IMG/VR virus record: IMGVR_UViG_3300031669_000091
Coordinates: 1-39,771 of that record
DNA from: a virus
Reading direction: 5' to 3' (one strand)
Length of the DNA: 39,771 nt
Part shown: positions 5,050-36,024 of the stretch, one piece after another
Numbering within the stretch: position 1 is the stretch's first letter
Layout: every line of letters begins with the position of its first letter
Position numbers and translations under genes: made by a program
The notes under the pieces: generated by a model
Told to the model about the DNA's origin: nothing
Seen by the model: the letters and a program-made list of their open reading frames with translations, nothing else
Database searches by the model: none

Positions 5050-5968
5050 CCCGATCAACAATCCTGCAGAGCCAACCTGGTTCCAGCCGCTTGTTGGCGA
5101 TGATGCTCCCGCGGAGCGTATTGAGCTGCTGAAGGGTTACGACACCCCGCAGGCCTTCCTCGAAGATTTTGAGAATACCAAGAACCGTGACTGGCGAGTC
5201 GACATCGCCGGCGACGACGCCAAGTTCAAGAGTCAGCTCGACAGGTTCTCGACTCCGGCTGACATGGGCAAGTCATTCCGTGAAGCGCAAGCCACGATCC
5301 GCGGTGGCATGTACAAGCAGGCCCCGGCCCCGGACGCGACGGACGATGACATCAAGGCGTTTCGCGAGGCGAACGGTATCCCTGCTGAGCCTGAAGGTTA
5401 CTTTGAGAATCTGCCAGAGGGTCTGGTTGTTGGTGAGGCTGACAAGGAGATTTTCACTGACTTTGCAACGAAAATGCACAGCAAGAACGTATCTCCTGAA
5501 GTCATGCAGGAAGTTATTGGCTGGTACAACGGCTTCGCTGAGCAGCAGCAGGAGCAGCTCGCGGAGATCGATCACTCGCACCATCAGGAAACTGAGGACG
5601 CGCTGCGCAACGAGTGGGGATCTGATTACCGCACCAACATCAATATGGTCAGCAAGCTGCTGGAAACGACCTTTGGCGAACAGGCTAAAGACGCCATACT
5701 GAATGCTCGCGACGGTGAAGGCCGAGCAATTATGAATATCCCAGAGATCGTCAAGGGTCTTGCAGGCCTGAGCCGCAAGATGGATCCGCTGGCCAGGGTA
5801 ATCAGCCAGAACAACGATCCAGCTCAGACGCTCAATAACGAGATCGCTGAGATCGAGAAATTTATGCGCACCAATCGCAAGGAGTACAATGCTGACCAGA
5901 AGATGCAGGATCGACTTCTGGAGCTCTACGACATCCGACTGGAGCACGACAAACGCAAGACTGGTTAA
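5021..5968 (+). CDS. Scaffolding protein
   Basis: The 315-aa protein starts at ATG 5021 behind a purine-rich site (GAGAGAGATAGAAG). It is acidic, rich in Glu/Asp/Gln, largely helical and has no cysteine. The C-terminal 50 residues (EIAEIEKFMRTNRKEYNAD... to KRKTG) end in a basic patch, like the coat-binding helix of T7 gp9/P22-type scaffolds. It lies between portal and major capsid, where scaffolds are found. It would direct coat assembly and leave before packaging. It overlaps the previous gene by 29 bases. Confidence 0.85.
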   Translation: MAETDQTTDNPINNPAEPTWFQPLVGDDAPAERIELLKGYDTPQAFLEDFENTKNRDWRVDIAGDDAKFKSQLDRFSTPADMGKSFREAQATIRGGMYKQAPAPDATDDDIKAFREANGIPAEPEGYFENLPEGLVVGEADKEIFTDFATKMHSKNVSPEVMQEVIGWYNGFAEQQQEQLAEIDHSHHQETEDALRNEWGSDYRTNINMVSKLLETTFGEQAKDAILNARDGEGRAIMNIPEIVKGLAGLSRKMDPLARVISQNNDPAQTLNNEIAEIEKFMRTNRKEYNADQKMQDRLLELYDIRLEHDKRKTG

Positions 5969-5979
5969 GGAGAACCATC

Positions 5980-6096
5980 ATGGCAGCACCGTTGCAGCCC
6001 ACAGAGCACATCGAGACCAATAACGACAATCAGCCGGAAGCGGCGATTGACACTGGCCCTGTTCAACCGGGTGATTCAATCGACTTCACAGCCTAG
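5980..6096 (+). CDS. Very small acidic protein, 38 aa
   Basis: ATG 5980 follows a strong ribosome site (AAGGAGA at 5968-5974, beginning at the scaffold stop) and runs 38 codons to TAG 6094-6096. The product is acidic and Pro/Asn/Gln rich with no cysteine or hydrophobic core, so it is likely unstructured alone. A strong Shine-Dalgarno and another gene 12 bases downstream with an equally strong site support it being translated. No function can be assigned. Confidence 0.55.
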   Translation: MAAPLQPTEHIETNNDNQPEAAIDTGPVQPGDSIDFTA

Positions 6097-6108
6097 TAAG
6101 GAGGGGTC

Positions 6109-6279
6109 ATGGCAAAGCTATTCAGGAAGGTCTTTGACATGAGGAAGCGCAAGCAGAGTGTCACCTATACCGGCATTGAGCCGGGTCGTGGCACCTCGAA
6201 CGTCGCCTCACCGATTCCCGGCCGTGCTCGAGGTCGTCGCGCAAAAACTCCCCTTGGTGGAGAAACGGATCAGCTATGA
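6109..6279 (+). CDS. Very small basic protein, 56 aa
   Basis: ATG 6109 is preceded by TAAGGAGGGG, close to a perfect ribosome site. The 56-residue product is strongly basic, with an Arg/Lys-rich N-terminus (FRKVFDMRKRKQ) and an Arg-rich central segment (GRARGRRAK), so it may bind nucleic acid or the inner head surface. The stop overlaps the next start (ATGA). Unknown family. Confidence 0.55.
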   Translation: MAKLFRKVFDMRKRKQSVTYTGIEPGRGTSNVASPIPGRARGRRAKTPLGGETDQL

Positions 6280-6398
6280 GCGAATCGGCACCGCAGACGA
6301 AATATGTTGGCAGGCTATCCAGCTCAAAGCCGGCTAAGCCGAAAACCCCGTTCAGCGGCAAGACCAAGAAGGCCAAGAAAAAAGCAAAGAGCTACTGA
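6276..6398 (+). CDS. Very small Lys-rich protein, 40 aa
   Basis: ATG 6276 overlaps the upstream TGA and the frame ends TGA 6396-6398, overlapping the next ATG. The 40-residue product has a Lys/Pro/Ala-rich second half (KPAKPKTP and KTKKAKKKAKSY) and resembles a histone-tail-like, nucleic-acid-binding peptide. Translational coupling on both sides is the main evidence. Function unknown. Confidence 0.5.
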   Translation: MSESAPQTKYVGRLSSSKPAKPKTPFSGKTKKAKKKAKSY

Positions 6399-6595
6399 TG
6401 GGGAAGTTGCTAAATTCTAAGGCATTCAGGTGGTCAAAGCCTCCGACAGCATGGTCAATGGGCTACTTCGATCGTGGCAAAGAGAAGGCTGAGTTCGATG
6501 GCGTCGTATATGACTCGAAAACCGTGAAGGCACTCCGTCAGCGAGAGCTGGCCAAGGCCAACACGGTGATCGGTTCAGCGAATAGCTACACGTAG
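6398..6595 (+). CDS. Small protein before the capsid promoter, 65 aa
   Basis: ATG 6398 overlaps the previous stop (TGATG). The 65-aa product is basic, with an aromatic N-terminal half (AFRWSKPPTAWSMGYFDRGK) and a helical C-terminal half. It ends TAG 6593-6595, directly against the -35 box of the predicted capsid promoter. It has no recognised domain. Confidence 0.65.
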   Translation: MGKLLNSKAFRWSKPPTAWSMGYFDRGKEKAEFDGVVYDSKTVKALRQRELAKANTVIGSANSYT

Positions 6596-6625
6596 TTGAC
6601 AACCTGGCTGATGCAGGGCTAAATT
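6596..6625 (+). promoter_or_regulatory. Sigma70-like promoter for the capsid unit
   Basis: TTGACA (6596-6601) is a perfect -35 box, and TAAATT (6620-6625) matches four of six -10 bases, with an 18-base spacer. Transcription would start near 6632 and run into the major capsid gene at 6788. The promoter sits in the largest gap of the window, immediately after a stop codon, and a terminator hairpin lies after the second gene of the unit. It implies use of host RNA polymerase for the capsid genes. Confidence 0.6.
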
Positions 6626-6787
6626 CGCAGTCACCACATCAAGCCGGCCAACCTCATTCGAGCCCCGGCGCCCCCCGGCCCCTGAGCCGGCAATGTGTGA
6701 GGCCCCGCAAGGCTAACCCTCACACAGCCAAGATCAGGCCAACCCGACCAGTGGAAATGGAAATTCACTTTTTTTGGGAGAGCCGAC
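6626..6787 (+). other. Structured GC-rich 5' leader of the capsid mRNA
   Basis: This gap is C-rich and holds a perfect 8-bp inverted repeat, GTGTGAGG (6695-6702) with CCTCACAC (6718-6725), loop 15 bases. A weaker AT-rich stem (6750-6756 with 6764-6769) is followed by seven Ts (6769-6775). GGGAG at 6776-6780 is the ribosome site for the capsid gene. The strong stem has no T-run after it, so it looks more like an mRNA-stabilising or control element than a terminator. The weak stem plus T7 could stop some upstream transcripts. No gene is seen; short frames here lack a ribosome site. Confidence 0.45.
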
Positions 6788-7636
6788 ATGGCCGAAACTG
6801 CTTTTCAAACACAATACCGGCAGGAATTCATTGCCGGATTCGAGCAGCACCAGTCCCTATTGCGCGATTCGGTCACGACCGACTCCGTAATCAAGGGAAA
6901 CGTAGCGACGTTTCTGGTAGCTGATTCAGGCGGTGCAACCGCTAAAACCCGCGGTGTGAACGGATTGATTCCGGCACGCGGCGACAACCTCGCGCAGCCT
7001 GCCTGCACGCTGGTCGAGTGGCATGATCTCGTTCGCAAGACCGATTTCAACATCTTCGCCAGCCAAGGCAATCAGCGCGCGATCATGCAGATGACCTGCA
7101 TGGCCGTCATCAATCGCAAGATTGACTCTGACATCATCACCGAGCTGAACACCGGCACCATCAACACCGGCGCCGCCGCTGTCGTTACGCTCAACCTGTG
7201 TCTCGAAGCCAAGACCCGACTGGGTCAGGCCGATGTGCCGTTCGATGGAAACATCAATATGCTCGTCACGCCTCACTTCGAGGGCATGTTGCTGACGCTG
7301 GCATCGTTCACCAGTCGCGACTTCACAGCCAATGGGCCGATCGACAATACGCCCGAGGCATGGCGCGATCGCCAGCAGTCTTACCGCTGGCTCGGCATGA
7401 ACTTTGTCGTTCACCCGGACCTCCCTGGCAAAGGCACCGCAGACGAGACCTGCTTCGCGTACCACAAGAACGCGATCGGTCACGCTTACAATGCCGACAA
7501 CATTGAGGCGCGGGCGGGGTATGACGAGGAGCAGGACTATTCGTGGTCTCGTTGCTCGATCTACATGGGCTCACAGTTGCTCCAGAACAGTGGTGTTGTA
7601 CTCGTACACGCTGTCGGAACGACTCTAACCGCGTAA
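6788..7636 (+). CDS. Major capsid protein
   Basis: The 282-aa protein is assigned as the HK97-fold major coat. It starts at ATG 6788, 7 bases after GGGAG. It has the usual signs: an N-terminal helical arm (FQTQYRQEFIAGFEQHQ), an early block rich in Gly/Thr/Ala, no charged runs, a central segment (NINMLVTPHFEGMLLTL) like the spine-helix and P-domain region, and a Val/Gly-rich C-terminus (SGVVLVHAVGTTLTA). It follows the scaffold and its own promoter, and precedes a small decoration-like gene. Catalytic motifs are absent, and its length is at the short end for the fold. Confidence 0.9.
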   Translation: MAETAFQTQYRQEFIAGFEQHQSLLRDSVTTDSVIKGNVATFLVADSGGATAKTRGVNGLIPARGDNLAQPACTLVEWHDLVRKTDFNIFASQGNQRAIMQMTCMAVINRKIDSDIITELNTGTINTGAAAVVTLNLCLEAKTRLGQADVPFDGNINMLVTPHFEGMLLTLASFTSRDFTANGPIDNTPEAWRDRQQSYRWLGMNFVVHPDLPGKGTADETCFAYHKNAIGHAYNADNIEARAGYDEEQDYSWSRCSIYMGSQLLQNSGVVLVHAVGTTLTA

Positions 7637-8556: not shown

Positions 8557-9198
8557 ATGACATCCAAATTAGCTCTTTACAACGGCGCTCTGAACGTACT
8601 CGGAGAGCGCAAACTGGCCTCCCTGACTGAGAATCGTGAGCCTCGCTACAAGCTGGATGACATCTGGGATAACGATTTGATAGATCGAGTTCTGCAGATG
8701 GGCCAGTGGTATTTCGCGCAACGCACCGTAGAGCTGTCGGCAAATCCATCAATCACGCCAGCCTTCGGCTATCAATATGGCTTTGACGCTCCAACTGACT
8801 GGATGCGGACGATGGCCGTCTGTTACGACGAGTATTTCAACCTTCCATGCACACGCTACTCTCGAGAGGGCGCGTGGTGGTTCTCTGACGCTGAGCTGCT
8901 TTACATCAAGTACGTGTCGAATGACGTACAGTTTGGCGGTGATTTCTCACTCTGGCCGCCGAACTTCACCGAGATGGTCGAGCACTACATGGCCATGAAG
9001 GTGGCGCCTCGGCTTACTGGCATAGACATATCCGATCAGTCGCTATTGGCAAAATACAAAATGTGGCTGTCTGAGTCCAAGGCAACAGATGCCATGGAGG
9101 AGCCAGCAAAATTCGCTCCCAAGGGTGGTTGGGCAAGCTCGAGGCGAGGCAATAGCTCGTCAGGTGATCGAGGCAAGCGCAACCAGTTGATCGGGTAG
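8557..9198 (+). CDS. Tail tubular protein A / adaptor (T7 gp11-like)
   Basis: The 213-aa protein resembles podovirus gp11-type adaptors, which form the ring between portal and nozzle. The N-terminal motif (LALYNGALNVLGERKLASLT) with downstream YKLDDIWD and an aromatic WYFAQRTV block is characteristic. The C-terminus is a disordered Ser/Gly/Arg tail. Its place just before the nozzle gene matches T7-like order. GAGGAG lies upstream of ATG 8557. Length is normal for the family (190-230 aa). Confidence 0.88.
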   Translation: MTSKLALYNGALNVLGERKLASLTENREPRYKLDDIWDNDLIDRVLQMGQWYFAQRTVELSANPSITPAFGYQYGFDAPTDWMRTMAVCYDEYFNLPCTRYSREGAWWFSDAELLYIKYVSNDVQFGGDFSLWPPNFTEMVEHYMAMKVAPRLTGIDISDQSLLAKYKMWLSESKATDAMEEPAKFAPKGGWASSRRGNSSSGDRGKRNQLIG

Positions 9199-9202
9199 CC
9201 TG

Positions 9203-12001
9203 ATGACGATGGGTGAAAAGGTCCTCCTCGCCTTTAACCGGGGAGTTGTATCAAAGCGCGGTCTGGCTCGAATAGACCTAGATCGCATGGCCATGTCGGC
9301 CGAGATCCAGAAAAACCTCATACCGCGGGTCCTCGGGTCCGCGATGTTCCGTCCGGGCTTGAAATACATCGACAGCATGTTCGAGGACCTCAACCTTGTC
9401 AGGCAGATGCCGTTCATCTTTGGATCCGAGGATACGGCGCTGATTGAGTTTGGGCAGGGCAGCTACATGCGGATCCGTGTCGATGATGAGCTGGTGTCGC
9501 GCGTAGCTGTTTCGGCCGCTGTTACCGATGGCGGTTTCAACGCTGCCCTGGGTGTTGGCGTCAATGACTGGCAGGACGATTCAGAGTCAGGCTCAACTGC
9601 GAGCTCAGGCACAGGCGACCTATTGCTGTCAGGATCAGGAGAGACTTACGCCAAGGTGACGCAGCGTGTCGAGGTTGGAGTTGGTGAGCAACTGGTCGAG
9701 CACTCGCTCTCTATCTCGCCGCGCATAGGTCCGGTGCGATTGCGCGTCGGCCAGACATTGAACGGTGACGAGCTGGTGTCTGAGACACTCCTGGAGAAGG
9801 GCGCTCACAGTATCGCTTTCATACCTCAGCAGGATCATTTTTTCATTGAGCTTGCTACCGATCGCGAGTACACCGTGACGGTAGGCGGTTGTGGCATCAC
9901 CGCCGCTGGAGTGCTGCAGTTCTCGACTGGGTGGTCAACCGAGTCTCAGGTCGCATCAGTGCGGTGGGCTCAGTCAGGAGATGTCATCTATTGCGCTGCT
10001 GATGGCCTGCAGCAAAAGAAGATCGAGCGCCGCGAATACGTCGACCTCAGTGTGTCTTATCCGCGATCATGGTCGGTGGTTGACTATGGCCCGGAGGACG
10101 GCCCGTTCAATGTCCTGAATGTATCTCAGACGACGATCACGCCATCCGCGATTGCTGGCGACATCACGCTGACAGCATCAGAGCCAATCTTCGAGCAGAC
10201 CATGGGCGGCAGTATCTTTGGTGCAGGAGCTCTTATCCGTATTGACTCTGTTGGCCAGACTGTCACGAATGGCATCAACGCAGACGACACGTTCACAAAA
10301 CCGATTCGCGTAACAGGCAAGGGCGCGGCCAGAGACTTCTTGGTAATTATCGAGAATATCCCGCCAGGATCAGCAACGGTAACGCTGCAGTTCTCTATTG
10401 GCACCGACTCTGGACCTTGGACTGACTGGTCGCCTGTGTGGACAACGAACCAGAGTCTCACGATCTCCGATGGTCAGGACGATGTTGTAATTTATTACCG
10501 GCTTGGCATTAAGGCCGGCGATTTCACATCTGGCCCAGTCAACTGCACGCTCACCTATCCCGGTGGAACCATTCAGGGCATCGCCCGCATGACAGGTTAT
10601 ACCTCGCCAACGGTTATCGACGCCGTGGTGCTCAGCGACTTAGGATCAATCACTCCAAGTAAAGACTGGAGCCTTGGCCAGTGGAATGGTGGCATGGCAA
10701 ACGGCTGGCCAGACACAGTAGAGCTGCATGAGGGCCGGCTCTGGTGGGCCGGTAGGGATCGCATCTGGGCATCTGTATCTGATGGCTACGAGTCTTATGA
10801 CGACAACCAGGTTGGCGATGCTGGACCGATCAATCGAAACATAGGCTCTGGACCGATCCGCACAATTGCTTGGCTGAAATCATTTGGCAAGCTGTTGCTC
10901 GGAACCTCAGATAACTCAGCGAACCTAGATGCAGCCAGCATGGATGGAAACAGTCCATTGAGCGTACGCTCGAGCTCGTTCGATGAGGCAATCACGCCAA
11001 CCAACTTCAACATCCGAAAAATCAACTCGAAGGGCGTATTCGTTGATCGCACTGAGCAGCGACTCTATGAGCTGGCCATTGGCACGGATCAGGAGTACCA
11101 GTCTGCTGATCTCAGCATCTTCGCGCCTGACTACAACGTGGCTGGCATCCGGCAGATTGCTGTGCAGATGAAGCCAGACGTTCGAGTGCATTGCGTGCGT
11201 AATGACGGCACTGTCGGGATGTTGGTCTATGACCGCGCCGAGAACGTCATCTGCTGGTGTGAGGTCGAGCTCGGTGGACCCGGCAACTGGTGCGTTGAGG
11301 ATGTCGCGGTTCTTCCCGGGGTAGTCGAGGATCAGGTCTATTACACGGTTAAGGGCTTCAACAGCGCACAAGGCGAGGAGCGATTCCTGCTGAAGTGGTC
11401 CAAGGAGAGTGAGGCGATCGGTGGTCTGAATAACTACATGGCAGACGCATGGGGCCAGTACACCGGAGTTGCAACTGACTTCCTGACAGGGCTGGAGAGA
11501 CTGTCTGGCCTGACAGTGTCGATCTGGGCTGATGGCGCTGACCGTGGCACAGCTCAGGTTACTCAGTTCGGCACACCTGGCGAGCTCGATCTGTCTGGAC
11601 TCGATGGTGCACCTTACACAAACATCATTTATGGGCTGCCGTACACTGGCCAGTTCAAGAGCGCCAAGCTCGGAGAGATTCAAGGCATTGGCCTGATGGA
11701 GCGCAAGAAGATCAGCCGCTTGGGATTCATTGCCGAGAACCTTCACTATCAGGGGATCCAGTACGGCCCCGATTTCAACACCCTCTACGACATGCCATTG
11801 GTTGAGCAAGGTCAGGTTACAGCCGATGACTTTATCTGGGAGGACTACCATGAGGACAATTTCTCTTTCGGGGGAGATTGGAAGCTGGATTCACGCATAT
11901 GCCTGCAATTTCAATCGCCAAGACCGGCGACAATCCTGGCTGCAACAGCAGAGTTCGAGTCGATCGAGAAGCGGTCAAGTCCAAGATCACGACGAGGTTA
12001 G
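9203..12001 (+). CDS. Tail tubular protein B / nozzle (T7 gp12-like)
   Basis: The 932-aa protein has the gp12-type N-terminus (LLAFNRGVVSKRGLARIDLD, then IQKNLIPRVLGSAMFRPG), a motif I associate with podovirus nozzle proteins. The body is beta-rich with repeated Gly/Asp segments, and the C-terminal third has the usual blocks (ELHEGRLWWAGRDRIWASVS; QRLYELAIG). It would form the hexameric tail tip through which DNA leaves. It directly follows the adaptor. The last 103 bases overlap the GNAT-like gene in another frame. Length is within the nozzle range (about 800-1000 aa). Confidence 0.9.
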   Translation: MTMGEKVLLAFNRGVVSKRGLARIDLDRMAMSAEIQKNLIPRVLGSAMFRPGLKYIDSMFEDLNLVRQMPFIFGSEDTALIEFGQGSYMRIRVDDELVSRVAVSAAVTDGGFNAALGVGVNDWQDDSESGSTASSGTGDLLLSGSGETYAKVTQRVEVGVGEQLVEHSLSISPRIGPVRLRVGQTLNGDELVSETLLEKGAHSIAFIPQQDHFFIELATDREYTVTVGGCGITAAGVLQFSTGWSTESQVASVRWAQSGDVIYCAADGLQQKKIERREYVDLSVSYPRSWSVVDYGPEDGPFNVLNVSQTTITPSAIAGDITLTASEPIFEQTMGGSIFGAGALIRIDSVGQTVTNGINADDTFTKPIRVTGKGAARDFLVIIENIPPGSATVTLQFSIGTDSGPWTDWSPVWTTNQSLTISDGQDDVVIYYRLGIKAGDFTSGPVNCTLTYPGGTIQGIARMTGYTSPTVIDAVVLSDLGSITPSKDWSLGQWNGGMANGWPDTVELHEGRLWWAGRDRIWASVSDGYESYDDNQVGDAGPINRNIGSGPIRTIAWLKSFGKLLLGTSDNSANLDAASMDGNSPLSVRSSSFDEAITPTNFNIRKINSKGVFVDRTEQRLYELAIGTDQEYQSADLSIFAPDYNVAGIRQIAVQMKPDVRVHCVRNDGTVGMLVYDRAENVICWCEVELGGPGNWCVEDVAVLPGVVEDQVYYTVKGFNSAQGEERFLLKWSKESEAIGGLNNYMADAWGQYTGVATDFLTGLERLSGLTVSIWADGADRGTAQVTQFGTPGELDLSGLDGAPYTNIIYGLPYTGQFKSAKLGEIQGIGLMERKKISRLGFIAENLHYQGIQYGPDFNTLYDMPLVEQGQVTADDFIWEDYHEDNFSFGGDWKLDSRICLQFQSPRPATILAATAEFESIEKRSSPRSRRG

Positions 12002-12330
12002 CCAGTTCGGCTGACATCGAAGCGTATTTTGGTGAACCTCCAAGGGTGACGATGCGCGCCTATGTCGCTCTTGTTGACGATGAAGTTTGCGGTGTAGTCG
12101 GTGTTGCGCGAGAAGGTGACATCGGCAAGTTCTTTGCGGACTTCAACGAGAAGCTGGAACCATATCTGTCCGGCCCTGCAGTCATGCGGATCGTCAAGAA
12201 GTCAATGAGATTTTGCGATGCCTACCGCGGGCCGGTAATCTCCATCGCGGAACACGCCGAGGGCTGCAGGATACTGTTTCGACTCGGATTCACACACCTT
12301 GAAGGGGAGTATTACGCATGGCTCAGATAG
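11899..12330 (+). CDS. GNAT-like acetyltransferase, 143 aa
   Basis: The frame starts within the nozzle gene. ATG 11899 is chosen; TTG 11878 is closer to a purine-rich site but only 2 bases from it. The conserved-looking part begins near residue 28. The layout fits a small GNAT fold: an N-terminal strand-helix (SADIEAYFGEPP), a strand pair (AYVALVDDEVCGVVGVA), a helix (AVMRIVKKSMRFCDAY) where acetyl-CoA would bind, and a closing GFTH strand. The classical Q/RxxGxG/A loop is not obvious, so activity is uncertain. Similar short GNATs occur among tail genes of other podoviruses. It overlaps the nozzle by 103 bases and the next gene by 13. Confidence 0.65.
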   Translation: MPAISIAKTGDNPGCNSRVRVDREAVKSKITTRLASSADIEAYFGEPPRVTMRAYVALVDDEVCGVVGVAREGDIGKFFADFNEKLEPYLSGPAVMRIVKKSMRFCDAYRGPVISIAEHAEGCRILFRLGFTHLEGEYYAWLR

Positions 12331-12860
12331 CAGTCGCAGCCGTACTTGCAGTCGGCGCCCTGTACAAGGGAGCTGAAGCCAAGAAGCTCAAGGATCAGGA
12401 GGCACAGGGTTACACGGATGCGTCGTATCGTCGTCTAGCAGCAGCGTCCCGAGATGTCTCCGAGGAGGAGCGCAACAAGGAATTCATGTACTCACGGGCG
12501 CTGGCATCATCAGCCGCGTCAGGTGGTGGCACTGGTCATGGTGTAACAAAGTTACTGGCAGACCTGAACGCAGAGGGCATGTATCGAATGATGTCGAGGT
12601 TATGGGTCGGAAAGGATGAGGCAGAGGGCCTGCAGTTCCGTGCCGAACAAGCTCGCAGAGAGGGCGATGCCGCCGTGAAGGCCTCCTACATCAATGCCGT
12701 CACCTCAGTTGTATCTTACGGCGCGTCCATGGGTGGTTGGGGCGGTGGTCCTCCATCTGCTGCGTCCGCTGGAGCATCCGCATCAGGAGCGGTTTCAGCT
12801 CAGGGCTATCCGATGTCACCTGTCCCTGCAGGCAGCGTACAAACAAAGCTCTGGGAGTAG
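12318..12860 (+). CDS. Internal virion protein (T7 gp14-like)
   Basis: The 180-aa protein has a hydrophobic N-terminus (MAQIAVAAVLAVGALYKGAEAKK), a long Ala/Glu/Arg helical middle (YRRLAAASRDVSEEERNKE) and a Gly/Ser/Ala-rich C-terminal part. This matches the pattern of podovirus internal core proteins that are ejected into the host and line the envelope channel. Its position after the nozzle is the T7-like slot for gp14. ATG 12318 lies inside the GNAT gene end (13-base overlap). Assignment is by composition and place. Confidence 0.7.
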   Translation: MAQIAVAAVLAVGALYKGAEAKKLKDQEAQGYTDASYRRLAAASRDVSEEERNKEFMYSRALASSAASGGGTGHGVTKLLADLNAEGMYRMMSRLWVGKDEAEGLQFRAEQARREGDAAVKASYINAVTSVVSYGASMGGWGGGPPSAASAGASASGAVSAQGYPMSPVPAGSVQTKLWE

Positions 12861-12863
12861 TAG

Positions 12864-14024
12864 ATGGCAACGCAGCAAAACTATCGGGTTGATTCGTTTG
12901 TCGGAGGGCTGGCCATTAAGGCGCCAGTCAAGACGGTATCGCTTGCCAACATTCCGTCGCCTTCTGGAACTGGCGGATTGGTTGGTGGCTACATCGTTTC
13001 CGAGGGCGATAGGGTTTTGCTGGCAGCTCAGGCCGACCCGATCGACAACGGCATTTACACCGTCGAGAGTTCGGCATGGCAACGCGCCGGCGACTTCGAT
13101 GGCAACCGCGACATTGTTGGTGGCACGATTATCCCGGTCTGGCGTCAGTCGATGACTGACATCGTGCTGTATCAGGTCGACGGAGTGCCGAGTCCTATCA
13201 TCATCGGTCAGGACGACATCGACATTATCCTGTTTTTCGATCCGACCCTGGCTGGTATTACCGAGGCTCCGATCGATGGCTCGAGCTACGTGCGCAACAA
13301 TGCCGGGTGGGTTGCTGAGTCCGCTGGATCCTTGCCTTCTCCAGCAGTTAGCTCGGTTCTTGCCGGCGACGGTGCAGGCAATAACTGGGTTATTGCAACC
13401 GACATAACGATCAACTCAGCGTCAGGTGCGCTGATGACAGAGTCGACGCTTGGCGTCACAGATGGCACTAACCAGTACACGCTCTCAGTCAATGCCGGTG
13501 TTGCCAATCTGATTGGCACGGTCGGCATCACGCACGTTGAGCAAACAAAACCATGGCGGAACCTCGGCTCGATCTACATTGGCGAGGCAGCCTCCGCCGA
13601 CACTGATTTTGCAGCCCTTGGCCAGTTCTGGGTGCAGTCAGAGGTCGACAACGTACCGATGTTTACCAGTGACGCCGGCACCGATCAGCTTCTTGATCCA
13701 TCACGCTCTGACGTCAACCTGCAGAATGGCAACTACACGACTGTCCTGGCTGACAAAGGCAAGACAATCCGTAAGGACGCCGGTGGCGCCGGCGAGACTT
13801 ACACGATCGCTGCAGAGGCTTCAGTCCCGTACAAGATCGGCACCTTCATCGCTTTTGACAATGACGGTGGTGGCACCCTGACAATCGCGATTGGCGGCAC
13901 TGATACGCTGATCTTTGCCGATGACGGCTCGACCGGATCTCGGACGCTGGCTAATGGCGGCTACGCGGTAGCCTTCAAGAACGCCGCTGGCCAATGGAAG
14001 ATCGCAGGGAAGCAGCTCACATGA
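12864..14024 (+). CDS. Short tail fibre/spike with shared anchor domain
   Basis: The 386-aa protein begins with a domain (about residues 6-120: LAIKAPVK, EGDRVLLAAQADPIDNGIYT, WQRAGDFDG) that is also the N-terminus of the long fibre at 31549. This block is common in phage fibres. Residues about 245-275 hold one copy of the GQxWV...VPMFTSDAGTD module that is repeated in the long fibre. The C-terminus is a Gly/Asp/Thr beta region (ending AGQWKIAGKQLT) typical of fibre ends. It lies between internal virion proteins. It probably docks on the tail and contacts the host; the receptor is unknown. ATGA overlap with the next gene. Confidence 0.8.
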   Translation: MATQQNYRVDSFVGGLAIKAPVKTVSLANIPSPSGTGGLVGGYIVSEGDRVLLAAQADPIDNGIYTVESSAWQRAGDFDGNRDIVGGTIIPVWRQSMTDIVLYQVDGVPSPIIIGQDDIDIILFFDPTLAGITEAPIDGSSYVRNNAGWVAESAGSLPSPAVSSVLAGDGAGNNWVIATDITINSASGALMTESTLGVTDGTNQYTLSVNAGVANLIGTVGITHVEQTKPWRNLGSIYIGEAASADTDFAALGQFWVQSEVDNVPMFTSDAGTDQLLDPSRSDVNLQNGNYTTVLADKGKTIRKDAGGAGETYTIAAEASVPYKIGTFIAFDNDGGGTLTIAIGGTDTLIFADDGSTGSRTLANGGYAVAFKNAAGQWKIAGKQLT

Positions 14025-30500: not shown

Positions 30501-31549
30501 GCATCGCCTACATCCGTGTTGGCTTCACCAAGTCGAAGCTGGCCTACAACATCTACACAACTGCGCTGCAGCTCACTGGTGCCTTTCAGTCGATGGCTGT
30601 TATCGGATCCAAGTCCATGGCGATGGGCCTCGGTCGCGTCATGGCTAATCCAGTCAAGGCATGGAAGGAGGCATTCGAGATGTCTGCCTTCCTCAAGGTG
30701 CGCTACGGGCAGGCCAATGCGTTCGACAAGGATGTACAGGATACGTCGAACTTCCTGCAGCAGAACTTTGGCGGCGGCATCCCGACTACGGCGAAGATGG
30801 CCATGGACAAGATCAGCCGCACGTTCTTCTGGCCGATCGCCAAGATGCAGTCGCTCGTCGATGTGACAACCTGGTATGGCGGTTACTGGAAGGGGCGCAA
30901 CGAGGAGGGCCTGTCTGATGCCGATGCAATTTTCTACGCAGATGCGCAGGTAGAGCTCGCGCAGACGTCCGGATTTTTCTCTGACAGATCCAACATCGAG
31001 CGCGGCACACTGAGTACCAGTACCCGACAGCAGCAGTTCATCAGGCTGTGGACGACGCTGATCTCCTACATGCTGCGCAAGGGCAACATCGCGTACATGA
31101 AAACTCAGGAGTTCAAGAAGGACATAGGTTTCATCTCCGCTGCTCAGTACGCCTCGGATCTGATTCTGTTGTTTACCCTCGAGGGGCTGACCAGTGCGCT
31201 GATCTACGGAAACTGGCCTGATGATGCCGAGGAGCCAGAGGACTATCTCAAGTTCACCGCTGAGCAGACTGCTCTGTCGGTGCTTTCAGGCGTACCATTT
31301 GCCCGGGAGATTACAACGGCCGTCTATGGCGGCGGCAACACTCCAGTAGGAGGTCTAGCCAGTGACCTGTCAGATCTTTACATACAGGCATTGCAGGGTG
31401 AGAACGACAAGGCGGCGCGCGAGGCTTTTGTCAAATCGTTTGGTACGCTATTCCATGTGCCAGCCAGTCAGACCAACAGGATGTTGGAGGCACTGATCGA
31501 CGAGGATGACCCTGAGCTCCTCGAATACTTCACAGGGACGAGAGACTAA
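24530..31549 (+). CDS. Giant polyvalent protein: JAMM + zincin + helical C-terminus, 2339 aa
   Basis: Likely an ejected multi-domain protein. In order: a helical N-terminus (KDCIKKFQKAGVPISSADIE); a RadC-type JAMM (MPN) domain with H342-N-H344-P-S-G, S352 and D355; a second, RadC-like but ligand-free segment around 440-500; a block EEVQSDWHQ (784-792) and WPSLAMKRIIRLAAEEG (from 913) seen in large polyvalent phage proteins; an HESGH zincin motif (1098-1102) with E1150/E1153 of HELWAESFEKY as likely third ligand; then long helical regions to the end with a hydrophobic segment near 2206-2228. JAMM domains usually cleave isopeptide bonds; the substrate here is unknown. No RNA polymerase motif was found, unlike N4 vRNAP. 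Coupled to its neighbours by overlaps. Confidence 0.88.
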   Translation: MALKDCIKKFQKAGVPISSADIEKLEAFIEQGMTDEQAVRALTVELDKKIVDIASYAASKGAQVQERKDVLGEVRSFAQAEEKKLRTRLAEIQKLTDAGGALAQVSDDINFIESIFRHWEPGGPDIDVYDDTALMTRINEMFFHPATGDLLRNGKLVMGMLKGKTQLQIFNNFRDLQDKREEIRTELLDLLVEGQEITNRLLDMKLRDNGVREMTEPYPSLNEPKTKGPKQGDLFSSPDVPVDKRIIEAKANYDAIVKVEVEKEISVGITRVNGPADAAHVLAEIRRNASEGMWAVVLDKDNNVVGIVEHARGTFDGTAVYPSTYAGAVITIPGAAKVWLMHNHPSGVLEPSQADERITRRIDQLMEGSGVKVQGHVLVGGGNSQFTEFGEHGVLSRGPITPAARNKKVPVYTRKIRGKQNGRKISSPADTQQVLKDMGNPEGVLMLNNRHHVLGFLSMTPQEMSKLKHTGQSNRLIRALADMNAAAFIVSTKEKNTTAANNMASFGNLADWRMLDALYLENGQTKSMASEGTLSATQTFYQSSIGFTSGLLTAARTMPNGKGKANEMLALLKKQPGVTKAEMEWLGVDEWLEAEAELNNTVTRDQIIKFVENNGIEVVETQALGDAAYKGQSMPNGNKPRDIFLKLPEIAEDTLVFTLDLEHIGEGYPIDDDQADDLFTFIESEPRMAGAVLERENSGQPDLKLTVSNVTEQQYDLLVEEMNALSLNIAKETTTDFRIEAPPAGEKGLQENFGFSHFNEKNILAWMRTTERYGPSGERILFVEEVQSDWHQRGSRYGYRGDEEGLSPEAIKVLDDGIKAAEHERVLATIALDEVLDSSDLLGFDTKGEARRAVRFNRDWAERWDVTDPVAIEAGDRYAMAVESHRQAKALKREALRKVVDAVPNAPFKGRGWPSLAMKRIIRLAAEEGYDQVAWTPGHVQNKRAGREADDSAHVNFYDNELVNLTNKAARKLDKNANVVRNGQRVQTSTGAPFRVELRRNPRLYGQARETLGWYVMDATNRIASGPYELEEVARGIANKKNHQQIRVHSLDITEEMKERALEGQTLFQKKKGSITFDEVGRATIRLFQSRDLSTFLHESGHLYLEVIGSLAERPEATDKIKADYAKILEYLGVENRGQITREHHELWAESFEKYLYEGKAPSMALQDAFNSFRRWLTDIWRRMRQSPDAIQLTDEIRGVMDRMLATDDEIKAARAVEQLQQTWLTAEAMGVSQEVFEVYRTSIVNANNEELERLTVKAMAALKRDQLTWWKDEKKKVQAEVEAEAHAARVYKALAFLQRGTRPDGSALTRAPFKLDKADLIDRYGKEFVGRLPKPWVYSVEGGVDTDVAATALGYKSANEMIEDLIKVPSMNNWIKAETEARMQQLFPDPLIDGSIAEDAVRIVHNDRRASVLAAEMRQLRELQRRDRAIVSATKKDIQKNRTASRDANKASLPKREELAIIKQAARATIGAKQVKDINPRIYLNAERKAGRRAFELAGQNNFEEAYVEKRKQIVNYEMYRAAVRAKEQSEKIRNYMTKFSKPRVQQRLGKLGVLDRILAVIENVDFANKTLKEVELDAALRDLREAVESGRMVVMPETAEKIFSGNVNWKELTADDLVGLRDIVKQLEKEADLQLKMPVNGEMIVLEEAKEEIISQILDNNQNVTLQKGTKTPKQQRSRELNSAISHWLGPSVLARLVDGEGWGAINRLMINNIRRAYTERLLPMQQKALEDVTKIWTKRYTNAERRRMDRKDFAVVGREQMSRNDVISLALNMGNDGNLTALLNGVDENGQLAYPEADVRAAVAKLESKDWMFVQDIWDYIGSYWPQLSQAMKERRGVSAEKVEPTSFTMVGSDGVEVNLSGGYYPLAYNPEFSDRVKAQIFDDHYTNMGNGVFVSATTRAGATYNRVKNHKNVVALGVFQIDKHLKEITRDIAIGNEVNFVKNLINDKDVRAAFRKTGNLQALNTLNLWLTDAAVGELPANSVVERRIAYIRVGFTKSKLAYNIYTTALQLTGAFQSMAVIGSKSMAMGLGRVMANPVKAWKEAFEMSAFLKVRYGQANAFDKDVQDTSNFLQQNFGGGIPTTAKMAMDKISRTFFWPIAKMQSLVDVTTWYGGYWKGRNEEGLSDADAIFYADAQVELAQTSGFFSDRSNIERGTLSTSTRQQQFIRLWTTLISYMLRKGNIAYMKTQEFKKDIGFISAAQYASDLILLFTLEGLTSALIYGNWPDDAEEPEDYLKFTAEQTALSVLSGVPFAREITTAVYGGGNTPVGGLASDLSDLYIQALQGENDKAAREAFVKSFGTLFHVPASQTNRMLEALIDEDDPELLEYFTGTRD

Positions 31550-34500
31550 TGGCTATCGATAGATTCAACGGGGTGATCGCATCACTGGCGATCAAGGTTC
31601 GATGTGTGGTGGCGGTTGAGAGCAACGTCCCTGTGCTCAGCGGCATCAGCAACCCTTACGGGGGCGTGTTCATTGCAAATGGAGACCGCGTCCTACTGAC
31701 AGCGCAGAGCGATGCAACCGAGAATGGTATCTGGGAGGCTGACTCGGTTGGTGCTTGGTCACGCGCGCCAGACTGGGATGGCAGCAGCGACCTTGTCAAG
31801 GGCACGACCGTTTGGGCTGGACAGCAGACCGGCGATGACAGGTTGTGGCAGGTCCAGACGACTGGAGTCATTCAGCCAGGTGTGACCTCTGTCTCGATCA
31901 CTGAGCTCTTTAACCCTGAAGTAGCAACAGCCACCAGCCTGCAGGACACGACTGACGTAGGCTCAACAACAACCAACTCGATCACCTTAAACGGTGGCTC
32001 GATCGTCATGTTCGAGCAGGCCACTCCGCCCGAGTCCAGTGCTGCAACCTTTGGACAGATCTGGGTCAGGAACTCCGCACCTAACGTCCTGATGTTCACG
32101 GATGATCTCGGCAACGATGTTGAGCTCTCGAGCATTGCGGGGGCGCTGCCGGTTGGCACAGTCAATGATTCGCCGCTGGTCTGGATAGATCCGAACTGGG
32201 TAGAAAACACATCGATCAGGCTTGGCGCCAGCAACATAAAGATCAACGAGGCCGCGACCGCTGCAGCTTCGTCGGCTGGTGTTGGCCAGCTTTGGGTAAG
32301 AAACGATACTCCCAACGTGCTCGTATTCACTGACGATACCGGCACTGACACGGTCATCGGGTTGAGCAACGTGGTCGATGGCGCCGTCGCTGGTGACATG
32401 GTGTACTGGGACGGCTCGACGTATCAGCCGAGCAGCAACATCTCATGGAACGAAACCACTCGCCAGCTCAGGCTCGACGCTGGCTCGGTCGCTGGTGCTT
32501 ACATACTCGAACTCGACATGGGCAGCAGCACCGCGGTAAACGGCATCAATTTCCTGACGACCGCGAATAACCCGTACAACTTCATCCGCGTCAGCGACCA
32601 GACTGGCGGCAACGGCTTCGAGATAGAGATGGATCACACCCTCTCGTCCGGCAACCATCGCCTAATCATCAAATCTGACCTGTCTGGAGATCTCCTGCAG
32701 TTGGAGGCTGACGGCGTTATCCGGTTCCTGCCGTTTGCCGGCAGCCCGGTCGAGATCAGCAGCGTCAGTGGTGTCGAGAAGGTTTTTGTGCAGAACGGCG
32801 CCACCCTCATGTTCCAGGAGATTGCCGCAGCACAGGCAGATCAAACCGGCCACGGCCAGCTTTGGGTAAGAAACGATACGCCCAACGTCCTTGTGTTCAC
32901 TGACGATACCGGCACCGATTGGGATTTGGGTGTAGTTGGTGTAGGTCAGTTGGATGAGCTATCCGATGTTGTAAGCGCGACGAACACGAACCGTTTTGCA
33001 CTGGTGGCAAACGGCACGACTGGTTACGTTGGACGCGCCCTTGTTGAAGCTGATATCTCGGACCTCGGAACGTACCTGACCACAGAGACTAACGACCTTA
33101 CCGCCGCAGTAACATGGGCCAACGTACCTGATGCAAACATCACCGAATCTAGTGTTACGCAGCACGCTGCTGCTGTTGCCGGCGCTTTTGTCCTTGACGA
33201 TATCAGTGACGTAACCGAGACAACTATCACCACCGGCGACCTGCTGCGCTGGAGCGGCACCGCCTGGGTCAATTACGCTGACAGCAACTTCGCGGCAGCA
33301 TCGCACACTCACCTGCTCGCCGCGGGCGCGACTGATGTCACGGCGTCTGCAACGGAGCTTAACCTGCTCGACCTGTCTGGCCTGACGGCTGGCTGGGTGT
33401 TATCTGCGGATACTGCAACAACTGCGAGCTGGAAGGCTCCTGCCTCCGCTCTAGTAGACGGCACTGTCGATGGGCAGATGTTGTATTGGGATGAGACTAC
33501 AGACACAAGGTACGAGCCGACTCTCAATATGCGGTACTCGGAACCGTCATCTATTCCTACACTGAGCTTCTACAGTGCCGCTGGCCTCACGCTGGAAGGC
33601 TCTGTTCGTGCAACTACAACCGCCCTGCAATTGGTGAATCAGTCGGGCACGATTGGTCTGAGCATGAACACAGTGACGGACCTGATTAACCTGCCAGTGC
33701 GCGTGAGTGGCGGCACATTCAGTGTCGGCAACTTGGCATGGGGCGAGAACATCACATTCGATGCCAACACCACGGCAGGAAGGGTAACGCTTACAGGGAG
33801 CTCAAAGAACCACTTGATATTTCAATCGCTTGACCTTGGGTTCCTTGGTCAGACGATAGCGGCAGGAGATCCGGTAGCGATAGCAGGCCACTCGCTGATC
33901 TGGTGTTGCGACGATGCGGCCCCGGCCCTCTACGACCGCGGCGAGTTCATATCCTCGCCGCTGAATAACTTGCAAGTCTGCACATGGCGGTTCAACACCC
34001 CAACAGGGGCAGCAGACCCAGCGACAAGTCTGTTCCGACTGAATAGCGCGACACCTGCATCCGTCACAGAAATCTATCTGGACGACAACGACTACGCTGA
34101 CGATGATGCCGCATGGTTCCTTGACACCATTGAGGTTGGCGATGTCCTGACACTCCGCACGACTGCTGGCCGACAAAAGTATTTCGTCTTTGAGGTGACA
34201 AGCGTCACCGACAATACTGGCTGGTGGACGATTGGCGTATCCATTATCGACAACGGCACGACGATATTCAGTAACGTCGATCATGTTCAGTTCGAGTTGC
34301 AAAAGACATCTGCCGCTGCGGGTGGCACCGGCAACGTCAGCAACTCAGGAACTCCGGCTAACAACGAGATTGCTGTATGGACTGGCGCAACCACCATTGA
34401 GGGTGATCCCAACTTCACATGGGACGGCTCGGTTCTTGATGTAACGGGAACCTTGGTTCTCGCAAGCTCGTCGATATTCCTTCAGCAGCGAGCGGCGGCG

Positions 34501-36024
34501 CAGGCCGACTCTGTTGGCTACGGACAGATCTGGGTCAACAGCGCCGACGATGAGCTGTACTTCACAGCCGACGATGGTGTCGATCATCAGGTCTCAAATG
34601 TCGCAATCACCGCACTAACGGGAGATGTAACAGCCACAGGACCCGGCTCTGTCGCAGCCACGATCGCAAATGACGCGATCAGTTATGCCAAGATCCAGAA
34701 TGTTGTCTCGGCAAACACGTTGCTCGGTAGTCTCTCTGCTGGCGGCATCGTCACTGAGCTGACTGGCACCCAGGTCAACACCTTCCTGCCTGTCTTTACT
34801 TCGACGCTGAATGGATCGGTTCCTCTGTCAGGCGGCGGCACAACCAACTTCCTGAGAGCAGATGGAACATGGGCCGCTCCTGCCGGTGGATCCGGAACAG
34901 TTACATCATCGGGCAGCCCGCTCGACAATCAGATTGCGGTGTTCACGACCGCGACTGACATCGACAGCAATGCCGGCTTCACCTATGACGGCACCCAGAT
35001 AATTGCAACGCCGACTGTGACCAACGGCTTTGAGGTTCATGGTCCTGGCAACCAGTTTATGATCTTCGACACGGTTGGCTCTGGTGATGCTGCTGACGCC
35101 TTTGGCTTCAACAAACAGGACGATCTCTGCTTCCTGCAAGCAACGGATGACTCGGCTGCCACCACGCGCGCCTTGATAAATATGGATGTGACGAGTGGCC
35201 TTGTGCGTATTGGCAATACCACTGGTGAGATCATCCTCAACAACTCGACACGCCTCGAGGACAACTTTGAGATGCGCTTCGGTAGTGCCGCTGGCGGTGA
35301 TGCGCAGATCGACTGGAACGGCACAAACCTTGTCATCAACACGGCCACTGGCGGGGTGCAATTTACGTCGCCAACCTCGGTAAGGACAGGCAACGCCTTT
35401 ACGCTGTACGACTCGACCAACACCGACACGTTCTCGATGACCAACAATGGCACCGACATCGTGTTCTCGAAGGTTGGCCTGGGTACGCTGTATCTCGACG
35501 ACACGTTGAATTTCCAGATGGACGACAACGCGACGTTCATCATGGGAACGACTGGCGATTGCACCATGACGTTCGACGGCACCAACGTCGCTATCGCTTC
35601 GGCGGTTGGCTCGTTCGACTGGGTGTTCACGGACATCGACGTCAATATGCAGGACAACGATATTATTCGTGCGAACCTGCTCGACTACTCGATCCAGTCC
35701 TCGTCGTCGACGCCTTCCGGCACCACGCAGACACTCGACTACACTGTTGGCCCTGCCTTCGAGGTGGACCTCGAGAGCGTCACTGGCAATATCACCATCA
35801 CGCTGTCGAATGCGCCTGCCTCCGGCACCTACGGCCAGATCACGGTCAAGGTAACGCAGGACTCAGCTACCGCCCGCACGATCACATGGGCTGGTGGCAC
35901 GTTCAGATGGGCAGGAGGAGCGGCTCACGTAATGAATGCTACGCTCGATGGGTTCTCAATCTTCACGTTTGAGACTTGGGACGGCGGAACCACTTGGTAT
36001 GGCGCAGGAGCGGACTACTCGTAA
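31549..36024 (+). CDS. Long tail fibre, 1491 aa
   Basis: ATG 31549 overlaps the giant gene's stop (TAATG). Residues 5-120 are the same anchor domain as the short fibre at 12864 (LAIKVRCV; NGDRVLLTAQSDATENGI; WSRAPDWDG). The shaft holds four copies of the GQ(L/I)WV...FT.D.G.D module (near residues 165, 241, 435 and 990), two of them nearly identical in DNA. Also seen are FAASHTHLLAAGATDVTASA and SGGGTTNFLRADGTWAAP, which are common in fibres. The C-terminus is a beta domain (RTITWAGGTFRWAGG) without a chaperone peptidase motif. It presumably forms a trimer and binds the host. Confidence 0.88.
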   Translation: MAIDRFNGVIASLAIKVRCVVAVESNVPVLSGISNPYGGVFIANGDRVLLTAQSDATENGIWEADSVGAWSRAPDWDGSSDLVKGTTVWAGQQTGDDRLWQVQTTGVIQPGVTSVSITELFNPEVATATSLQDTTDVGSTTTNSITLNGGSIVMFEQATPPESSAATFGQIWVRNSAPNVLMFTDDLGNDVELSSIAGALPVGTVNDSPLVWIDPNWVENTSIRLGASNIKINEAATAAASSAGVGQLWVRNDTPNVLVFTDDTGTDTVIGLSNVVDGAVAGDMVYWDGSTYQPSSNISWNETTRQLRLDAGSVAGAYILELDMGSSTAVNGINFLTTANNPYNFIRVSDQTGGNGFEIEMDHTLSSGNHRLIIKSDLSGDLLQLEADGVIRFLPFAGSPVEISSVSGVEKVFVQNGATLMFQEIAAAQADQTGHGQLWVRNDTPNVLVFTDDTGTDWDLGVVGVGQLDELSDVVSATNTNRFALVANGTTGYVGRALVEADISDLGTYLTTETNDLTAAVTWANVPDANITESSVTQHAAAVAGAFVLDDISDVTETTITTGDLLRWSGTAWVNYADSNFAAASHTHLLAAGATDVTASATELNLLDLSGLTAGWVLSADTATTASWKAPASALVDGTVDGQMLYWDETTDTRYEPTLNMRYSEPSSIPTLSFYSAAGLTLEGSVRATTTALQLVNQSGTIGLSMNTVTDLINLPVRVSGGTFSVGNLAWGENITFDANTTAGRVTLTGSSKNHLIFQSLDLGFLGQTIAAGDPVAIAGHSLIWCCDDAAPALYDRGEFISSPLNNLQVCTWRFNTPTGAADPATSLFRLNSATPASVTEIYLDDNDYADDDAAWFLDTIEVGDVLTLRTTAGRQKYFVFEVTSVTDNTGWWTIGVSIIDNGTTIFSNVDHVQFELQKTSAAAGGTGNVSNSGTPANNEIAVWTGATTIEGDPNFTWDGSVLDVTGTLVLASSSIFLQQRAAAQADSVGYGQIWVNSADDELYFTADDGVDHQVSNVAITALTGDVTATGPGSVAATIANDAISYAKIQNVVSANTLLGSLSAGGIVTELTGTQVNTFLPVFTSTLNGSVPLSGGGTTNFLRADGTWAAPAGGSGTVTSSGSPLDNQIAVFTTATDIDSNAGFTYDGTQIIATPTVTNGFEVHGPGNQFMIFDTVGSGDAADAFGFNKQDDLCFLQATDDSAATTRALINMDVTSGLVRIGNTTGEIILNNSTRLEDNFEMRFGSAAGGDAQIDWNGTNLVINTATGGVQFTSPTSVRTGNAFTLYDSTNTDTFSMTNNGTDIVFSKVGLGTLYLDDTLNFQMDDNATFIMGTTGDCTMTFDGTNVAIASAVGSFDWVFTDIDVNMQDNDIIRANLLDYSIQSSSSTPSGTTQTLDYTVGPAFEVDLESVTGNITITLSNAPASGTYGQITVKVTQDSATARTITWAGGTFRWAGGAAHVMNATLDGFSIFTFETWDGGTTWYGAGADYS
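32284..32345 (+). repeat. 62-bp direct repeat copy 1 in the long fibre
   Basis: This segment encodes one GQLWVRNDTPNVLVFTDDTG module and matches 32854-32915 at 58 of 62 bases. The two copies are exactly 570 bases apart in frame. Silent-type third-base changes make up the differences, so it is a recent in-frame duplication or conversion. Confidence 0.8.
32854..32915 (+). repeat. 62-bp direct repeat copy 2 in the long fibre
   Basis: This is the second copy of the module found at 32284-32345, with four base differences. It encodes the same protein motif. Homologous recombination between the copies would delete 570 bases (190 residues) in frame. Confidence 0.8.

Follow-up and report, generated by a model that had tools for sequence, protein, structure and literature searches.

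Two related fibre genes in one podovirus genome

The window, by which we mean the whole stretch of DNA analysed, comprises the 39,771 bases of virus record IMGVR_UViG_3300031669_000091. Its genes run in an order that we take to be that of a T7/Carin1-like podovirus, several of the gene names having been assigned by reading of the sequence: terminase, portal, scaffold, capsid protein, tail connector, tail nozzle, an acetyltransferase, a gp14-like internal virion protein, a short fibre-like protein (S), several virion genes, a large polyvalent protein, a long fibre (L), lysin, holin and a spanin-like gene (Table 1). Both fibre ORFs were confirmed, each beginning directly after the upstream stop, and a 53,510-base contig (IMGVR_UViG_3300031578_000047) has S and the N-terminal part of L in identical form. 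The acetyltransferase gene, GNAT-like by eye, lies between the nozzle and gp14-like genes (window 11878-12330), overlaps the end of the nozzle gene and is kept in nearly all relatives. Further upstream, the gap from scaffold to capsid protein (window 5968-6788) holds about 800 bases without an ORF of at least 80 aa.

The original prediction, made from the letters of the window, was that the first ~120 residues of S and L are paralogous, and the comparisons bear this out at 36–38% identity. BLASTP aligns S residues 8-277 with L at 34% identity (E=5e-23). When only the N-termini are aligned by Smith-Waterman (128 and 126 residues), the score of 182 exceeds those of 2000 shuffles (mean 31, maximum 61), and the next-ranking window gene reaches 53. 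When S residues 1-132 were compared with the whole 39.8-kb record, only S and L matched (L: 2.8e-19, 38% identity). The GQxWV...FTxDxGxD module that had been noted in both fibres is likewise there, in one copy in S (residue 253) and four in L (residues 169, 246, 436 and 992), and is absent from the other 25 window genes checked. In both fibres the homologous stretch is modelled by AlphaFold2 as a confident domain (here, the N-domain). The mean pLDDT is 66.6 for whole S and 74.5 for L residues 1-284, and confidence is low for the first residues, the linker and the tips of both proteins. A Pfam scan of L yielded no more than two matches, DUF5907 and DUF4382, and neither reached its cut-off.

Table 1. 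Fibre genes S and L, their parts and the neighbouring genes, in window coordinates.
Feature	Position	Strand	Remarks
Tail connector	8557..9198	+	TTA-like; homologue of Carin1 connector gp37
Tail nozzle	9203..12001	+	TTB-like, phrog_376; homologue of Carin1 nozzle gp36
gp14-like internal virion protein	12318..12860	+	phrog_418; sets S slot
S, short fibre-like protein, 386 aa	12864..14024	+	N-tail, N-domain, linker, one GQxWV module, C-tip
S N-terminal tail MATQQNYRVDSFVGG	12864..12908	+	Proposed docking peptide of S-slot type; residues 5-9 have low pLDDT
S folded beta N-domain, residues 16-130	12909..13253	+	AlphaFold2 pLDDT ~88-97, residues 21-130
S GQxWV module, residues 253-274	13620..13685	+	
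S C-terminal tip, residues 276-386	13689..14021	+	Tip homologue carried by L061 (L slot)
Partner gene after S, 154 aa	13994..14458	+	Overlaps S end
Large polyvalent protein, 2339 aa	24530..31549	+	Sets L slot
L, long fibre, 1491 aa	31549..36024	+	
L N-terminal tail MAIDRFNGVIAS	31549..31584	+	DRFNG type
L folded N-domain, ~residues 13-124	31585..31920	+	pLDDT 83-97 over most of residues 11-120
L GQxWV module 1	32053..32118	+	
L GQxWV module 2	32284..32349	+	
L GQxWV module 3	32854..32919	+	
L GQxWV module 4	34522..34584	+	
L C-terminal tip	35659..36021	+	phrog_9017 tail fibre; six S-slot proteins have a homologous tip
Gene after L, 243 aa	35976..36707	+	C-terminal part weakly like S partner gene; marginal

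Distribution of the two slots and exchange of tips

In a census of related loci drawn by the nozzle gene rather than by the fibre, S immediately followed the gp14-like gene in 28 of the 34 loci that had at least 47% nozzle identity and could be evaluated (11 more could not), counts that include near-copies (two sets within the 28 and one within the six empty loci). Below 47% nozzle identity this slot was filled in none of 31 evaluable loci (four not evaluable). Copies in the L slot, after the polyvalent protein, are present in many distant loci. That the S slot is found only in close relatives, and L-slot copies in many distant ones, argues that the L slot is the older and that S is a derived second copy. 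Both genes occur, each in the same place, on seven contigs (G001, G002, G003, G007, G009, G012 and G048). In G011 and G051 there is no S, and the L slot is filled by a tandem pair; in G010 it has three copies. One of the locus comparisons behind these findings covered 42 of the 65 loci first listed, those dropped being mostly shorter contigs.

The C-terminal parts of these proteins are less faithful to their place. Six S-slot proteins (L004, L006, L027, L029, L032 and L035; 2.5e-7 to 2e-14) bear the tip of the window's L, and conversely L061, an L-slot protein with an L-type N-domain, bears that of the window's S (1.6e-31). Bodies thus pass from one slot to the other, whereas N-domains mostly stay. 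A virion with two receptor specificities, as originally predicted, is a plausible hypothesis. A tip is not always needed in the S slot, because at locus L135 (13541-13903) the S-slot gene encodes 120 residues, tail and N-domain only, with the next gene immediately after. The S body of L117 is out of frame.

Separate lineages and slot-specific N-terminal tails

We built a tree of the N-domain from 51 of 82 available rows, comprising all S-slot and L-slot rows plus 20 hand-picked outgroup rows, and leaving out rows that matched fewer than 95 profile positions and some near-copies. The 17 S-slot rows form one clade (98/94) and the 14 L-slot rows another (94/82). Constraining the window's own S and L as sisters costs 104 log-likelihood units (AU p=3e-7). 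The paralogy is an old one that has been maintained. Within genomes, S-L identity averages 39.0% versus 36.5% between genomes, with 41 of 720 permutations as high. This excess rests on G009, whose N-domains are 59% identical, as against 28–46% in other S-L pairs, and for which the AU test, on a tree without the window's own S and L rows, does not reject S and L as sisters (p=0.11).

What separates the slots lies ahead of the folded domain. Comparing the 17 S-slot with the 14 L-slot rows, we found slot-separated columns (fully or nearly distinct, with overlap under 0.1) at 6 of 12 tail positions and at none of 105 in the folded domain, all six falling within S residues 5-12; the Fisher value of 3e-7 overstates independence, as one change on a single branch can fix a tail. 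The tail carries DRFNG in 14/14 L-slot rows of the tree and is xFRxx(S/G)F-like in 17/17 S-slot rows, a pattern that allows Y for F and in which L036 has L for the last F and L004 has L for R. Among rows added after the pattern had been seen, 10 of 11 S-slot proteins fit (nine of nine, then L203 but not L204), as did three of three from the L slot. In total, DRFNG marks 17/17 L-slot rows and the S-type tail 27/28 S-slot rows, so that the tail separates 44 of 45 rows by slot, some of these rows being close relatives of one another. The sole exception, L204 (L204:3356-3712), is an S-slot protein with a DRFNG tail; in the tree it stands between the groups, on the side of L, and forcing it to join S lowers the log-likelihood by only 0.13. 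Given L204, the slot rule for tails is not absolute.

The original prediction also had S and L possibly sharing or competing for the same tail sockets through their N-domains, to give mixed virions with two receptor specificities. This reading now seems unlikely, though several observations agree with it: the folded domain holds no slot-diagnostic residue, tips interchange, an L-type tail does occur in the S slot (L204), and the multiple L-slot copies of G010 and of G011 and G051 suggest that several fibres of the same type can coexist. Indeed G011 and G051, with no S and with two L-slot copies bearing the same DRFNG tail, fit a shared socket better. Against it, the tail follows the slot in all rows but one, the N-domains form separate lineages in which even the window's own pair is rejected as sisters, and S and L show no homogenisation within genomes except in G009. 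Tails that are slot-specific and precede the folded domain favour different docking partners, and on the sequence evidence S and L would seem, by a slight balance of probability, to use two different docking sites rather than one socket.

A widespread N-domain

The N-domain is widespread in viral contigs, with 262 relatives found, although our census kept the best 80 of these and leans to near relatives. Across 86 distinct domain-bearing stretches from the related loci, its start is mostly near residue 4 of the ORF, and in some cases 50–180 residues in. Among 48 domain-bearing proteins scanned, pectate-lyase-like bodies occurred in three, TSP1/Gp66 tailspike domains in two and collar domains in two, and depolymerase or endosialidase parts in single ones. 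Such an N-terminal place on tailspike and fibre bodies suits a stem, or a module by which receptor-binding proteins are mounted, though the domain is not that alone. Pfam has no model for it, and the T7 tail fibre N-terminal anchor (PF03906) matches neither S nor L at E<=1. Several PHROGs do match and are annotated as tail fibre, head decoration or unknown; phrog_14824, phrog_2647, phrog_11518 and phrog_17264 have the same domain, in several profiles internal rather than N-terminal.

The best PDB sequence match is 9nx3, a mycobacteriophage capsid decoration protein (profile E=3.5e-14), a fragment of which is 100% identical in many mycobacteriophages of ~150 kb. It is homologous to the N-domain of S and L but differs from them in having no fibre body, in coming from a phage of ~150 kb and in its capsid role, which is given by the molecule name. 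With such a homologue, the N-domain appears not to be a tail-only anchor. Searches by fold were less telling: Foldseek with the whole-S model found no PDB match at E<=0.001, and in the VIA fold list the S N-domain had nothing above Z 2.9 and that of L nothing above Z 4.0 (unrelated enzymes), neither of which shows that the fold is new. Despite its sequence match, 9nx3 was not among the fold matches listed. A BFVD fold search gave 70 matches at E<=0.001, and many among the matches listed are named tail fibre proteins.

These relatives raise the question of whether S might decorate the capsid or neck and not be a tail fibre at all, which we consider improbable. On the one hand, beyond 9nx3 and the head decoration PHROGs, the S of L135 is a bare domain, and the S tip has a structural likeness to the Pa223 capsid spike (Z 5.5 over 71 residues, 2.6 A). 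On the other hand, that resemblance is tied with one to a Klebsiella phage baseplate chain and comes from a tip model with pLDDT of only 38-69, S lies within the tail and ejection gene block and has tips in common with fibres of the L slot, and in two relatives that lack S a second L-slot copy is present instead.

Comparison with Carin1 and with podophages bearing two receptor-binding proteins

The virion of Cobetia phage Carin1 has been solved, and its connector and nozzle are homologous to those of the window (2.8e-10 and 4.5e-19, respectively). Its L slot, at the same position after a homologous large protein, holds the tailspike Dpo31; no S-like gene is present among the Carin1 tail genes searched. 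According to PMC13317679, it is through its D1 domain that Dpo31 attaches to the phage tail. The N-terminal part of Dpo31 shows no similarity to the S/L N-domain above shuffle level, so that at least one exchange of the mount has taken place in the L slot. The Dpo31-like slot protein of CP2 has a weak PF03906 match (E=5e-4, below its cut-off), and behind polyvalent-protein homologues the mount of the fibre gene varies by phage, being T7-like in CP2 and the present N-domain here.

Several receptor-binding proteins can occur in a single podovirus, and usually one fibre hangs on another. S and L would be a variant of the known podophages with two such proteins. As with K1-5, G7C and the Klebsiella KP32 group A described in PMC6872550, two fibre or tailspike proteins occur in one podovirus, with conserved N-terminal attachment parts and exchangeable distal parts. 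In the two-receptor-binding-protein Klebsiella and coli podophages described there, one protein serves as the anchor, and the other is attached to it, or to an adapter, through a short conserved peptide (PMC6872550). Unlike those of G7C and KP32, S and L have the same folded N-domain in common, and it is in the N-tail that they diverge. We found no report of duplicated or paralogous tail fibres in podophages in the open-licence literature, though such may still be published.

Could S then be a branch fibre, borne on L or on the product of a neighbouring gene as is the second protein of G7C or KP32? In its favour, S and L both overlap a small gene that follows them (13994 and 35976), the two small genes being weakly alike; another point is the larger S neighbour of 536-610 aa in three relatives (L004:7991-9715, L147:14363-15973 and L126:9721-11553), which has the same C-terminal domain as the window's S partner. 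Yet S keeps the whole folded N-domain, in contrast to the short-peptide second proteins as PMC6872550 portrays them, and Pfam gives no T4gp10-like domain in L, although Pfam alone can miss such a domain. We think it very improbable that S is mounted in this way.

The likeness of the two small downstream genes is marginal: an iterated HMM relates them at 4.6e-7, one way, hhalign gives a probability of 53%, and their pairwise score of 54 compares with a shuffle maximum of 57. The duplicated unit may thus have been a two-gene cassette of a fibre and an overlapping small gene. In the larger neighbours of L004, L147 and L126, BNR-propeller-like repeats (by eye) precede the C-terminal domain, and these neighbours are possibly a further glycan-binding virion protein.

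A proposed scheme: a duplicated fibre with a rewritten tail

As to two separate docking sites, the homology, the slots, the tree, the tail signatures and the shared tips are seen directly in the sequences, whereas docking through the tail, a difference between the two sites and the presence of S and L in virions are inferred. S and L would then go back to a virion fibre gene that was duplicated long ago in a lineage of T7/Carin1-like podoviruses. In L, both the original position behind the polyvalent protein and the original DRFNG tail would be preserved, and L would act as main tail fibre, docking most likely, by synteny with Carin1, at the connector-nozzle junction. S would be the copy that came to lie at a new place, after the gp14-like gene, keeping the folded N-domain while its tail changed to the xFRxx(S/G)F type, such that it most likely docks at a different virion site. 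The folded N-domain would be a shared stem module, and the tips would be drawn from a common pool and move between both slots. In its fullest form (a duplicated fibre re-addressed by rewriting ~10 residues, with one stem, two sites, the address in the tail, the tips free and L204 an early state, moved with its address unchanged), this scheme is tentative, and we put it at rather less than an even chance.

A site specific to S did not emerge from comparing loci with and without it, as we found no separated columns in the connector, nozzle, gp14-like protein, capsid protein or 7978 gene. Separated columns did occur in the portal (7), the 16308 gene (9), the scaffold (2), the acetyltransferase (1) and the 14467 gene (1), numbers that come from only four to six rows lacking S and from which we draw nothing. 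Insertions in the nozzle relative to Carin1 were considered as the S docking site and rejected, being also present in relatives without S.

In this window, then, two paralogous fibres with the same stem are apparently sorted by a very short N-terminal tail. If the re-addressing is true, the tail alone decides the mounting site of a fibre, a sequence rule predicts fibre position, and the sharing of tips is explained without mixed mounts. The choice between one socket and two would also become testable by swapping about a dozen residues.

Possible hosts of the group

Relatives sit on contigs that were assigned to MAGs of Woeseiaceae, Chromatiales and Acidithiobacillales. A host among the Gammaproteobacteria is thereby suggested for this virus group, the binning of viral contigs being unsure. 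The contig of L204, on which the nozzle gene is split between two frames, was binned to a Chromatiales MAG.
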